Source: an uncultured Cetobacterium sp.
Lineage (GTDB): Bacteria > Fusobacteriota > Fusobacteriia > Fusobacteriales > Fusobacteriaceae
NCBI RefSeq assembly: GCF_947072685.1
Contig: NZ_CAMTIK010000009.1
Coordinates: 67,360 to 102,727 of the forward strand
Length of the DNA: 35,368 nt
Direction of reading: 5' to 3'
Shown here: positions 20,574-35,338 of the stretch, piece by piece
Layout: each line of letters begins with the position of its first letter
How positions within the stretch are numbered: position 1 is the stretch's first letter
Position numbers and translations under genes: made by a program
Notes under the pieces: model-generated
Databases searched by the model: none
The model's input: only the letters and a program-made list of their open reading frames with translations
Told to the model about the DNA's origin: nothing

Positions 20574-21002
20574 TTAAATTCCATCTATTTCATCGGCTAA
20601 TACATTCGAGACTGGTTCCTCAAATACCAATAAAGAATTTTTCGCGTGTATTAAAATATCTCTTATTATTTCAGAGCACTCCCCTTCTTCTCTCAGTTCT
20701 AACGCCGACAATACACTTGGAAGATTTGTTCCTCCAATAACTTTTATATTTCCTTTTTCTTGCGAAAGGGATACTGCTGTTGAAAATGGTGTCCCTCCTG
20801 CCAAATCAGTTAGAAATAAAACTCCCTCCTTCTCATCGAGCTCTTGAATGGCTTCATTAAACCTCTTTTCTAACTCTTCAGTTCCCATTCCATTATTAAA
20901 ATTTATATACTTTATTTTTTCCTGTTGTCCTACAATATACTCCAGTGTTTTTTCAAATCCTGATGCAAACTCTCCGTGTCCACTTATGATTATTCCTAAC
21001 AT
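20574..21002 (-). CDS. PTS system mannose/galactosamine-family EIIA component
   Basis: A 142-residue cytoplasmic phosphocarrier of the mannose (Man) PTS family. It receives phosphate from HPr on His9 (IISGHGEFASG) and passes it to EIIB. The conserved LFLTDLAGGTPFSTA (about 62-76) and GGTNLPSVLSALELRE segments are those of AgaF/ManX-type EIIA domains, and the length is that of a free-standing EIIA. ATG 21002 follows AAGGAG with 5 bases of spacing. It is the last gene of EIIB-EIIC-EIID-EIIA and is followed by a strong terminator. Substrate specificity lies in the EIIC/EIID partners and not in this protein. Confidence 0.9.
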   Translation of the reverse strand: MLGIIISGHGEFASGFEKTLEYIVGQQEKIKYINFNNGMGTEELEKRFNEAIQELDEKEGVLFLTDLAGGTPFSTAVSLSQEKGNIKVIGGTNLPSVLSALELREEGECSEIIRDILIHAKNSLLVFEEPVSNVLADEIDGI

Positions 21003-21018
21003 TTTTTCTCCTTATAGT

Positions 21019-21834
21019 TTAAAGTATTCCTACTAAAGTTCCTAAAATTCCAATTCCTAATGTTATCATAATAAGAGTTATCGGTGTTTTACCTTTTTTT
21101 AACAGATAAAACATGAATAATGTGTACATTAACGGCAACATATTTGGCATAATTTTATCTATTACATCTGTTTGGATATTAACTGCTGTTGAGCCCATTT
21201 CAATTACATACGGAATATTTAATCTAACAAAAGACGCAATTAATCCCCCTACAACTGTCAATCCAAGTATCAAAGATCCCTTTGTTACATATTCTGTATC
21301 TCCTTGAAGTTTTTGAATCGCATCCACCCCCATCTTATAAGAGTAGTGCATTAAGAAAAATCTCAGAAAAATATGTACCGAATTAAATATCAATAAAAAT
21401 ACGATTGGTCCTGCAATACTTCCTTCAAGAGATAAAGATACTCCAATACTTGCTGCTATCGGCAACAATGTAAACCAAAATAACGCATCTCCTATTCCAC
21501 CCAAAGGTCCCATAAGAGCTATTTTTATTCCTCTTATTGATTCTTGACTCTCTTTACTCTCTTCCATAGCTGTCACAATTCCTTGAACAAATGTAACTAA
21601 AAACGGATGAACATTGAAAAATTCCATGTGAAGCTTCATTGATCTTGATAAATCCTCTTTATTCTTATGAATCTTCTTCAATGCTGGAAGCATAGCATAT
21701 AGCCAACCACATGCCTGCATTCTCTCGTAGTTAAATGAGGCTTGTAAAAGAAATGATCTCCACACCATATGGTTCAATTCTTTTTTCGTTATTACTTTCT
21801 CTTGACTTTTATCAACATACCCATTAGATTCCAT
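21019..21834 (-). CDS. PTS system mannose/N-acetylgalactosamine-family EIID component
   Basis: About 271 residues. EIID pairs with EIIC to form the membrane translocator unique to the mannose PTS family. Family motifs are LNHMVWRSFLLQASFNYERMQACGWLYAMLP (about 20-50), FFNVHPFLVTFVQGIVTAMEE, IKIALMGPLGGIGDALFWFTLLPI (about 103-126) and the C-terminal membrane helices. The frame is open upstream to 21858. ATG 21834 gives the natural start MESNGYVDKSQ and follows GGAGG by about 12 bases; GTG 21837 is possible. It overlaps the EIIC stop by 11 bases, a sign of translational coupling. The match is closest to the galactosamine/N-acetylgalactosamine branch, from the neighbouring EIIB and AgaS. Confidence 0.9.
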   Translation of the reverse strand: MESNGYVDKSQEKVITKKELNHMVWRSFLLQASFNYERMQACGWLYAMLPALKKIHKNKEDLSRSMKLHMEFFNVHPFLVTFVQGIVTAMEESKESQESIRGIKIALMGPLGGIGDALFWFTLLPIAASIGVSLSLEGSIAGPIVFLLIFNSVHIFLRFFLMHYSYKMGVDAIQKLQGDTEYVTKGSLILGLTVVGGLIASFVRLNIPYVIEMGSTAVNIQTDVIDKIMPNMLPLMYTLFMFYLLKKGKTPITLIMITLGIGILGTLVGIL

Positions 21835-22603
21835 CACTATAATCATCCTCCTTAGCACTCGAAGATATAAACTCCATTTTATCTATTTTTTTATTATTTT
21901 GATAATCATAGATAGCTATTATAAATCCTACTGCGGCAATTCCAATTACAGGTAAGTTTAAATATGTTGCTAATATAAAACCTAGCACAAAGAATATAAT
22001 ATAGTCTTTTTTAAACATTATATTAAGTAATAGTGCAAATCCTATTGCAGGCATCATTCCACCGGCAACTCCAAATCCTCTTATTAACCACTCTGGTAAA
22101 ACTGAAACAACCGCTTGCGCAGCCTCTGCTCCAATAGATATTGGTAAAAATGTTACTAAGAAATAAAATACAAATAAAATCCCCATTCCACTGTAGTTTA
22201 TTATATTTATCCCCCTATCATTACACTCTTCAGCATATTTGTCTGCTGTATGCATCACAGGAGAAAAGAAAGTAAATAAAAGAGTTATACAAGCTTGTAC
22301 TGCCACAGCAAACGGAATTGCTATCCCTACTGCTACAGTTGGATCTTGCTTCGTTAAAATTGCAAAAGCTGATCCTATAATTCCACCAACCACCACATTT
22401 GGAGGTTGTGCTCCGCCCACTGGTACTGCTCCCATCCAAACTAATTCTAGAGTTGCTCCAGCTATCAGCCCTGTTTTTATATCACCTAATATTAGCCCTA
22501 CAATCAATCCACTCACCAAAGGTCTGTGAATATGACTCAATCCATCAAATAAATCTATCCCTGCAAGTCCTGCATATATAGCAATTAAGAATGCATGAAA
22601 CAT
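21824..22603 (-). CDS. PTS system mannose/N-acetylgalactosamine-family EIIC component
   Basis: A 259-residue, strongly hydrophobic inner-membrane protein of the EII-Sor/Man EIIC family. The N-terminus has the signature GIDLFDGLSHIHRPLVSGLIVGLILGD (about 16-42), followed by GATLELVWMGAVPVGGAQPPNVVVGGIIG (about 50-78), the substrate-site region of this family. About seven membrane segments follow, ending in a polar tail (SSSAKEDDYSDGI) whose codons overlap the EIID start. ATG 22603 follows GGGAGGGA. With EIID it carries the sugar through the membrane for phosphorylation by EIIB. Confidence 0.92.
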   Translation of the reverse strand: MFHAFLIAIYAGLAGIDLFDGLSHIHRPLVSGLIVGLILGDIKTGLIAGATLELVWMGAVPVGGAQPPNVVVGGIIGSAFAILTKQDPTVAVGIAIPFAVAVQACITLLFTFFSPVMHTADKYAEECNDRGINIINYSGMGILFVFYFLVTFLPISIGAEAAQAVVSVLPEWLIRGFGVAGGMMPAIGFALLLNIMFKKDYIIFFVLGFILATYLNLPVIGIAAVGFIIAIYDYQNNKKIDKMEFISSSAKEDDYSDGI

Positions 22604-22619
22604 AAGAATCCCTCCCTTT

Positions 22620-34326: not shown

Positions 34327-35260
34327 TTACTTCCTCCCATAATTTTAAACTGTATAGTGCTGATCCATATACAGGTGAATATTTTGGTTCTAATATTTTC
34401 ACATCTATTTTATTTTTAGATAAGTATTCTTCCAAGTGATTAAAAATATAATCTGACGCTTTAAATACTCCACCTGTATATGAAATTTTTATTGGTTTAT
34501 TTATGAATTCAATTTGATTTACAATAGCTTTTATCATAAGTCCGATTTCCACTGCAGCTTCCTTAAAAATAGCCTTTGAATACTCCTCATTAGCTAGAGC
34601 TGCTTCATATACAACTAGAGATAATTTAGCTATTTTTCCTCTATCCAAAGTATATTTATTATACACAATATCAATCAAATCAAAATCATCCTGCAGTCCA
34701 ATTCTATTTCTAAAAATTTCATAAAATTTTGTTTTATCTAATCTTCCATCAGATTGCTTAGTAAAAACCTCTATTCCTTTTTTAGCAATCCAATGGGCGG
34801 AGCCTTCATCACCACATGCATGTCCCCATCCGCTACTACGTCCTTCCTCACCCAATTCATTTATTCCATATGCAATTGCACCTGTTCCAGCAATTATATT
34901 TATACCTGGCTCACAAGCTAGGGATCCTGCCCAACCAGCTTTCATATCGTTACCAATTTGATAATTTAATGTTCCCCAACTTTTTTCTACCACTTTTTCT
35001 ATCTTCAATTTATCTTCCTTTATTTCTCCGTATCCCGGAATACCTGCAAAAATATACCCTACTTCATTCAATGATATATCAAGCTGACTCTGAACTCTAT
35101 CCAAGATGTTTTTCAGTAAATTCTCTAACCCCTCAAAACCAATTTGCAAATAATGACCTGTTTCTGTTTCAAAATTAAGAACCTCTTTTTTTTCTTTATC
35201 AATTACAGAAACTGCAGTTTTTGTTCCTCCGCTGTCAATTCCTATAAAATATTTCCCCAT
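34316..35260 (-). CDS. N-acetylhexosamine kinase-like protein (BadF/BadG/BcrA/BcrD ATPase family)
   Basis: A 314-residue ATPase of the actin-like fold, resembling N-acetylglucosamine kinase. The phosphate-1 motif is YFIGIDSGGTKTAVSVID (about 4-21), phosphate-2 is INIIAGTGAIAYGI, and the sugar-side motif is GRSSGWGHACGDEGSAHWI (about 136-154). The adenosine motif is ISYTGGVFKASDYI, and the C-terminus is EPKYSPVYGSALYSLKLW. It probably phosphorylates free GalNAc/GlcNAc or another hexosamine released in the cytoplasm, complementing the PTS route. The frame is open to 35278, where the ATG begins the G6 ribosome site itself. ATG 35260, 8-9 bases after GGGGGGAG, gives MGKYFIGIDSGG and is preferred. 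It is the first gene of its operon, behind a consensus promoter and GntR-type operator. Confidence 0.88.
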   Translation of the reverse strand: MGKYFIGIDSGGTKTAVSVIDKEKKEVLNFETETGHYLQIGFEGLENLLKNILDRVQSQLDISLNEVGYIFAGIPGYGEIKEDKLKIEKVVEKSWGTLNYQIGNDMKAGWAGSLACEPGINIIAGTGAIAYGINELGEEGRSSGWGHACGDEGSAHWIAKKGIEVFTKQSDGRLDKTKFYEIFRNRIGLQDDFDLIDIVYNKYTLDRGKIAKLSLVVYEAALANEEYSKAIFKEAAVEIGLMIKAIVNQIEFINKPIKISYTGGVFKASDYIFNHLEEYLSKNKIDVKILEPKYSPVYGSALYSLKLWEEVNAN

Positions 35261-35286
35261 CTTTATTTCTCCCCCCATCTTCTCTA

Positions 35287-35304
35287 AAGTGGTATGTACC
35301 AGTT
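35287..35304 (-). promoter_or_regulatory. GntR (HutC-type) operator of the kinase-agaS-kbaY-lacC operon
   Basis: On the plus strand AAGTGGTATGTACCAGTT is an 18-bp palindrome (TGGTA/TACCA perfect, outer positions nearly so). It fits the AGTGGT-N4-ACCA pattern of NagR/DasR/AgaR2-type regulators and begins 6 bases downstream of the -10 box. It shares AAGTGGTA with the site before the PTS operon. Confidence 0.78.
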
Positions 35305-35309
35305 GGTTT

Positions 35310-35338
35310 ATTATAATTTTTTTATCTCATTTTGTCAA
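35310..35338 (-). promoter_or_regulatory. Consensus promoter of the kinase operon
   Basis: On the minus strand there is TTGACA (complement of 35333-35338), exactly 17 bases and TATAAT (complement of 35310-35315). Nothing further is seen in 35339-35368. Confidence 0.85.

Follow-up and report, generated by a model that had tools for sequence, protein, structure and literature searches.

We analysed a 35,368-nucleotide stretch (hereafter the window) that forms the terminal part of a contig in the 2.15-Mb genome of an uncultured Cetobacterium sp. (G000:C9:67360-102727). Three groups of genes lie in it: an ATP-binding cassette (ABC) importer with a sulfatase and a glycoside hydrolase family 35 (GH35) galactosidase, a phosphotransferase system (PTS), and a kinase operon for amino sugars. 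On balance, they appear to form a scavenging pathway for sulfated Gal-β-1,3-GalNAc (sulfo-galacto-N-biose, the mucin core 1 unit) and for unsulfated N-acetylgalactosamine (GalNAc). We favour sulfated galacto-N-biose because two unrelated cytoplasmic enzymes predicted to act on Gal-β-1,3-N-acetylhexosamine (HexNAc), GH35 here and GH112 in other lineages, pair with one sulfatase family. The substrate, the order of the steps and the position of the sulfate are predictions from sequence.

On the minus strand, the genes for a binding lipoprotein, two permeases, the sulfatase and GH35 follow one another and, after a gap of only 89 bp, are succeeded by PTS IIB, IIC, IID and IIA. A LacI regulator gene is located upstream of the ABC unit and divergent from it, and past it, again on the minus strand, come the kinase, AgaS, KbaY, PfkB-family kinase and GntR regulator genes. 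Every gene named in a first-pass annotation of this DNA was found in its place with a Pfam or NCBIfam match, and its grouping of the ABC importer, a Cys-type sulfatase and GH35 into one unit is borne out by gene content and order. The same annotation treated the PTS and the kinase group as two separate operons; each has its own promoter-like site and palindrome, although the PTS lies close to GH35 on the same strand. A promoter-like site and a GntR-type palindrome, the latter found at the kinase operon as well, lie in the GH35-IIB gap, which makes three transcription units plausible. The contig ends 90 bp upstream of the kinase gene; in the relative G020, too, the operon starts with the kinase. 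The genes of the ABC unit are:

23192..24991 (-), GH35 β-galactosidase, BgaC type, predicted cytoplasmic; overlaps the sulfatase gene by 29 bp; Pfam 1.7e-116
24963..26285 (-), Cys-type S1 sulfatase, predicted cytoplasmic; TTG start; CGPAR, Cys50; Pfam Sulfatase 4.9e-59
26295..27125 (-), ABC permease 2; BPD_transp_1; 84-87% identical in relatives
27130..28074 (-), ABC permease 1; BPD_transp_1; 81-83% identical in relatives
28076..29335 (-), ABC solute-binding lipoprotein, CUT1 type; SBP_bac_1, Pfam 115 bits; lipobox LVGC

The sulfatase (PF00884, 200 bits) has the C-x-P/A-x-R motif as CGPAR at Cys50, and its residues D10, R54, K98, H189, D265 and K286 are kept in 90-100% of 30 homologues. RGGYKDYWMA-D-LEFTSHGY, EPHHQND and ISES--GRA-RT appear to be the marker motifs of this sulfatase group. 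Since the stop-to-stop frame has 441 codons and the first catalytic strand begins at residue 3, there is no space for an upstream signal peptide, and the enzyme is predicted to be cytoplasmic. The genome encodes four sulfatases, all of Cys type and each without an apparent signal peptide. An AlphaFold2 model (predicted local distance difference test score 91) found its top fold matches in S1_11, with template modelling scores of 0.74-0.80 at an identity of only 21-25%. The best of these are hexose-6-sulfatases, N-acetylglucosamine (GlcNAc)-6-sulfatases among them, and the nearest folds also include porphyran and carrageenan sulfatases. At 21-26% identity the 6-O-sulfatase neighbours give only a hint of the sulfate position, and we rejected reading the position off the fold.

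GH35 (Pfam 390 bits) has an N-terminus without a hydrophobic stretch. Its best solved relatives are 4mad (677 bits) and 4e8c (476 bits), which we take to be the BgaC β-1,3-galactosidases of Bacillus circulans and Streptococcus pneumoniae. Nearest to these, it is a putative cytoplasmic enzyme cutting Gal-β-1,3-HexNAc. The earlier statement that neither enzyme carries a signal peptide thus holds for both, and with the gene content of the unit it supports the proposed order of import, desulfation and cleavage. GH101 endo-α-GalNAc-ase gave no match, but the control was equally empty, so that absence does not follow.

The binding lipoprotein and two permeases, with a MalK-type ATPase encoded elsewhere, make up a CUT1 ABC sugar importer. 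The ATPase, unlinked to the ABC unit, is the only one in the genome with an OB_MalK domain. The ATPase, a sulfatase maturase and a deacetylase had all been expected to lie elsewhere, and a genome search located them: besides the ATPase, there is one match over cut-off to the anaerobic sulfatase-maturing enzyme type (TIGR03942, 392 bits; cut-off 349) and one NagA above cut-off. NagA can replace AgaA in E. coli (PMC3668189) and has been proposed to act in the GalNAc pathway of S. pneumoniae (PMC5018945).

The PTS and the kinase operon comprise:

20574..21002 (-), PTS IIA, AgaF; NCBIfam AgaF 138 bits, cut-off 130
21019..21858 (-), PTS IID, AgaE-like; Pfam EIID-AGA 6.5e-99; closest NCBIfam AgaE, under cut-off
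21824..22603 (-), PTS IIC, AgaW; NCBIfam AgaW 360 bits, cut-off 300
22620..23102 (-), PTS IIB, GalNAc type, AgaV-like; NCBIfam PRK11425 196 bits, cut-off 180
30646..31434 (-), GntR-UTRA regulator, AgaR-like; Pfam UTRA 7.7e-35 and GntR
31431..32342 (-), PfkB-family kinase; TIGR03828 over cut-off; TIGR01231 lacC 281 bits, under cut-off
32345..33196 (-), KbaY/GatY, tagatose-bisphosphate aldolase; TIGR01858 461 bits, cut-off 444
33190..34326 (-), AgaS, galactosamine-6-phosphate deaminase/isomerase; TIGR02815 439 bits, below the cut-off of 529; SIS domain
34316..35278 (-), hexosamine kinase, BadF/NagK-like; Pfam BcrAD_BadFG 5.2e-42; NagK_SO3507 1.5e-20, under cut-off

The annotated GalNAc/galactosamine type of the PTS stands for IIA, IIB and IIC, which pass GalNAc-specific NCBIfam cut-offs, and less firmly for IID. 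The gene called LacC does encode a PfkB-family kinase; it passes the cut-off for 1-phosphofructokinase and not that for LacC, and from its context it is probably a tagatose-6-phosphate kinase. AgaS, KbaY, this kinase and the NagA encoded elsewhere make up a GalNAc (Aga) pathway, in which AgaS and LacC stay under the strict cut-offs.

In the pathway that we propose, the lipoprotein would capture the sulfated disaccharide and the two permeases would import it unmodified, with the genome's only MalK-type ATPase as the power source. Once activated by the sole anaerobic maturase, the cytoplasmic sulfatase would strip the sulfate inside the cell, and only then would GH35 free the galactose. The BadF-type kinase would phosphorylate the released GalNAc and NagA would deacetylate it, after which AgaS, the PfkB-type kinase and KbaY would take over. 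Free GalNAc, and perhaps also the unsulfated disaccharide, would come in via the PTS and be phosphorylated on entry. LacI would control the ABC unit and the GntR regulator the kinase operon and the PTS. ABC importers leave sugars unchanged, whereas the PTS phosphorylates them, usually at C6. A separate hexosamine kinase would thus be needed because the sugar taken up by the ABC importer arrives unphosphorylated, and the importer itself because a PTS does not suit a sulfated sugar, particularly one with its sulfate on the carbon that the PTS phosphorylates.

Comparison with 61 genomes of the family is consistent with two routes. The sulfatase is present in five of them, the Cetobacterium genome itself, G003, G008, G009 and G020. 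The kinase occurs in 8/61 genomes, including all five sulfatase carriers (naive hypergeometric p ~1e-5, kinship ignored), and a close PTS IIC (at least 80% identity) was not found in two of these carriers, G003 and G020. Both observations support the earlier assignment of the kinase to the ABC route. The order of binding protein, two permeases, sulfatase and GH35 is kept at 66-87% identity in G008, G009 and G020, where no PTS follows, and the binding lipoproteins of these units are 69-72% identical to that of the window. In G020 the ABC-sulfatase-GH35 unit directly faces the kinase operon and no PTS match was obtained, which argues, as first proposed, for the PTS being a separate route. In G006, G008 and G009 the PTS and kinase genes stand together in one apparent operon; G006 gave no match to the sulfatase, and in the other two genomes the operon and the sulfatase unit are separate. 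Next to the sulfatase units of G008 and G009 lies a paralogous GH35-binding protein-permease-permease unit without sulfatase, 48-71% identical. The simplest reading of such paired units would be that they handle the sulfated and the unsulfated form of the same sugar. In G009 (L106, G009:C1:280000-299999, positions 4166-17464) the importer units with and without sulfatase are arranged tail to tail, with a LacI regulator each. A locus from a Cetobacterium metagenome-assembled genome (L020), the same genus as the window genome, is apparently the same locus as the G003 match; the G003 sulfatase copy (L105, G003:C141) has one in-frame TAA and is either a pseudogene or an assembly error.

Candidate regulatory elements were found upstream of each unit:

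23121..23136, second GntR-type candidate operator, in the GH35-IIB gap; AGTGGTACGGACAACT, 3 mismatches; downstream of a promoter-like site at 23174-23147
29361..29378, LacI-type candidate operator O1; palindrome CAAGATTACGTATTCTTG; just downstream of a consensus promoter at 29419-29391
29499..29516, LacI-type candidate operator O2; CAAGAATACGTATTCTTG; within a 46-bp near-perfect inverted repeat at 29485-29530
29632..30624 (+), LacI-family regulator; Pfam LacI and Peripla_BP_3; divergent from the ABC unit
35288..35303, GntR-type candidate operator of the kinase operon; AGTGGTATGTACCAGT; just downstream of a consensus promoter at 35338-35310

The two copies of the palindrome CAAGAWTACGTATTCTTG (O1 and O2) flank the perfect consensus promoter of the ABC unit; no other site in the genome matches it with at most one mismatch, and the chance expectation in the window is 0.01. 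With one mismatch, the palindrome also precedes the non-sulfatase unit of G009, which suggests that units with and without sulfatase respond to one common signal. The palindrome AGTGGTAYGKACMAST occurs twice, closely following the promoter-like site of the kinase operon in one case and that of the PTS in the other; for this reason both are probably under a common GntR regulator, with the ABC unit under its own LacI. A nearly identical palindrome is found upstream of the kinase in G005, G006, G008, G009 and G020. LacI and GntR are putative partners of their respective palindromes, and promoter-like sites over the whole region are no more numerous than in shuffled sequences. Between the divergent promoters, the inverted repeat that holds O2 could in addition fold into an AT-rich hairpin.

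Homologues of the sulfatase at 49-60% identity occur in Clostridia and in one Spirochaetia genome. In four loci, from Romboutsia (L023), two Oscillospiraceae (L027 and L033) and the Spirochaetia genome (L035), the sulfatase is accompanied by an ABC importer and by a GH112 galacto/lacto-N-biose phosphorylase instead of GH35. The GH112 genes of L027 and L033 were detected by tblastn, and those of L023, L033 and L035 match the lacto-N-biose phosphorylase 2zus/3wfz over nearly their full length (682-754 bits). GH112 is present in 7/12 non-fusobacterial sulfatase genomes; the five fusobacterial genomes and the 14 controls have none. The family includes galactosyl-rhamnose phosphorylases (PMC8950772), an unlikely role here because L023 has linked galactosamine genes and a strong lacto-N-biose phosphorylase match. 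Both L022 and L023 carry AgaS, KbaY, LacC and a BadF kinase next to the sulfatase. The fusobacterial importer is only a distant relative of those in L023, L027 and L033 (the L023 binding protein is about 20% identical), so the pairing of the sulfatase with an enzyme cutting β-1,3-galactosides has been kept, or reassembled, with different transporters. These loci narrow the substrate originally given as sulfated Gal-HexNAc to sulfated Gal-β-1,3-HexNAc, most likely galacto-N-biose. More tentatively, and with slightly less than even confidence, this cytoplasmic S1 sulfatase group may define a portable gene module, present in Fusobacteriota, Clostridia and Spirochaetota, for the use of sulfated galacto-N-biose; it would combine an ABC importer with GH35 or GH112 and let gut bacteria outside the Bacteroidota use sulfated mucin core 1. 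The loci compared do show a module conserved in three phyla.

Several observations weigh against sulfated galacto-N-biose as the substrate. Five of the 12 non-fusobacterial sulfatase genomes have no GH112, and most loci in these genomes show no linked importer or glycosidase; no close solved structure pins the specificity of the sulfatase; and GH35 and GH112 enzymes accept Gal-β-1,3-GlcNAc too. In Pasteurella multocida (L100, NZ_CP113523.1 74527-99771, positions 7773-13350) a 55% homologue stands without a glycosidase, and the sulfatase may therefore act on smaller or other sulfated sugars. Its neighbours there are an anaerobic sulfatase maturase and a tripartite tricarboxylate transporter, a class not usually tied to sulfated sugars. 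Family members also neighbour a sialic-acid-like BNR-repeat/DHDPS-domain gene (L034, 7905-11395) and a GH4 gene (L024, 9986-13564), so the substrate may differ between lineages.

The imported sugar could instead be sulfated lacto-N-biose (the type-1 chain Gal-β-1,3-GlcNAc, sulfated for instance at C6 of the GlcNAc), and the aga genes would be mere neighbours. GH112 and BgaC-type GH35 do act on lacto-N-biose or Gal-β-1,3-GlcNAc (PMC8950772; PMC5018945), GlcNAc-6-sulfatases are among the S1_11 enzymes that best match the sulfatase model, and no aga genes lie near the GH112 loci L027, L033 and L035. We nevertheless find this unlikely, as the window, G020, L022 and L023 have linked AgaS-KbaY-LacC-kinase genes and not NagB, and the PTS subunits are of GalNAc type. 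About equally unlikely is a sulfated monosaccharide (GalNAc-4-sulfate or GalNAc-6-sulfate, for example from chondroitin sulfate), from which the sulfatase would yield GalNAc for the kinase while GH35 belonged with the PTS. In S. pneumoniae GH35 directly precedes PTS IIB-IIC-IID-IIA in the same order (bgaC-gadVWEF; PMC5018945), the sulfatase and importer of L021 and L022 have no adjacent glycosidase, as is the case for the P. multocida homologue, and a polysaccharide lyase family 8 (PL8) locus exists elsewhere in the genome. However, G008, G009 and G020 have GH35 immediately after the sulfatase and no PTS after that, the paralogous importer without sulfatase has a GH35 of its own, and GH112 takes its place beside the sulfatase in the four other loci.

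Two further explanations seem to us much weaker. That the units adjoin but do not work together, with a sulfatase that only scavenges sulfate or acts on unrelated esters, would agree with the family members that lack a recognised importer or glycosidase (L025, L026 and L029-L032); it is improbable given genes that overlap or nearly touch, a common promoter and synteny conserved across genera and phyla. A sulfated algal or plant galactan fragment from the diet is the most improbable of all: porphyran and carrageenan sulfatases are among the nearest folds and Cetobacterium is an inhabitant of aquatic animals, but hexosamine genes are linked, the GH112 enzymes are of β-1,3-HexNAc type and no agarase or carrageenase was found in the window.

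The glycosulfatase (ats) clusters of Bifidobacterium breve resemble the sulfo-galacto-N-biose pathway proposed here, with an ABC importer, a cytoplasmic sulfatase and a maturase for a sulfated amino sugar; unlike in the window, their substrate is the monosaccharide GlcNAc-6-sulfate and there is no galactosidase step. Desulfation in the cytoplasm behind an ABC importer had been considered notable in itself, but it was already proposed in 2017 for the glycosaminoglycan cluster Smon0120-0128 of Streptobacillus moniliformis, with data on binding and on the transporter ATPase (PMC5430744). That cluster, also from Fusobacteriota, likewise has an ABC importer with binding protein, a predicted cytoplasmic sulfatase and cutting after import. 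Oiki and colleagues explained the Streptobacillus ABC importer, as against the streptococcal PTS, for sulfated disaccharides by PTS phosphorylation (PMC5430744); their argument that C6-sulfated sugars cannot use a PTS fits the ABC route and kinase of the window too. The Streptobacillus substrate differs, being a lyase-made unsaturated uronyl disaccharide cut by GH88, and the window holds neither GH88 nor a lyase. The Streptobacillus-like locus of the Cetobacterium genome is a separate one, L015 (G000:C37:1-11203). It encodes a PL8 lyase whose N-terminus is hydrophobic, a protein with an autotransporter domain, ABC permeases and a Cys-type sulfatase that has no signal peptide.

The S. pneumoniae aga operon (bgaC-gadVWEF-agaS-galM; PMC5018945) shares with the window GH35 before PTS IIB-IIC-IID-IIA, AgaS, a GntR-type regulator and GalNAc use, AgaS lying here in the neighbouring operon; it differs in having no sulfatase, ABC importer or hexosamine kinase. 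Intact Gal-β-1,3-HexNAc is also imported and cut in the cell by GnbPTS-GnbG, where a hydrolase acts after a PTS, and by LnbABC-LnbP, where a phosphorylase acts after an ABC importer (PMC5583593). Both take the unsulfated disaccharide, and the window adds a sulfatase. The logic of import before desulfation is thus already known in related bacteria, whereas the proposed substrate and the sulfatase group seem undescribed. In nature, core 1 sulfated at C3 or C6 of galactose is documented (PMC8527052), and sulfated mucin glycans have been reported in carp and grass carp, in work cited in PMC6553937. A 2017 survey of human gut genomes detected genes for mucin-desulfating (GlcNAc-6-) sulfatases in Bacteroidetes and Akkermansia alone, and in Fusobacteria it detected no enzymes that release GalNAc (PMC5583593). 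If correct, desulfation of core 1 in the cytoplasm would let gut bacteria outside the Bacteroidota exploit, privately and with no sulfatase at the surface or in the periplasm, the sulfated mucin fragments that others leave behind. The sulfatase group would be a testable new target for enzymologists, and the paired units with and without sulfatase a ready natural comparison within the same genomes.

In the binding proteins, Lys91, Lys223, Lys265 and Lys378 are common to those of sulfatase units (L035 included) and not found in the paralogue. We draw no inference from them, and dropped the comparison as a guide to the binding pocket, since about as many basic residues show the reverse pattern. 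The window also contains a complete TctC-TctB-TctA transporter (1542-4533) adjoining a dicarboxylate symporter-family gene. P. multocida, which pairs such a transporter with its sulfatase homologue, had made it a candidate part of the system; we rejected it, as TctA is 36% identical to that of P. multocida and there is no further link. Directly downstream of the PTS genes, positions 16635-20459 encode a group A6 [FeFe] hydrogenase that is NADH-dependent and has subunits resembling NuoE and NuoF.

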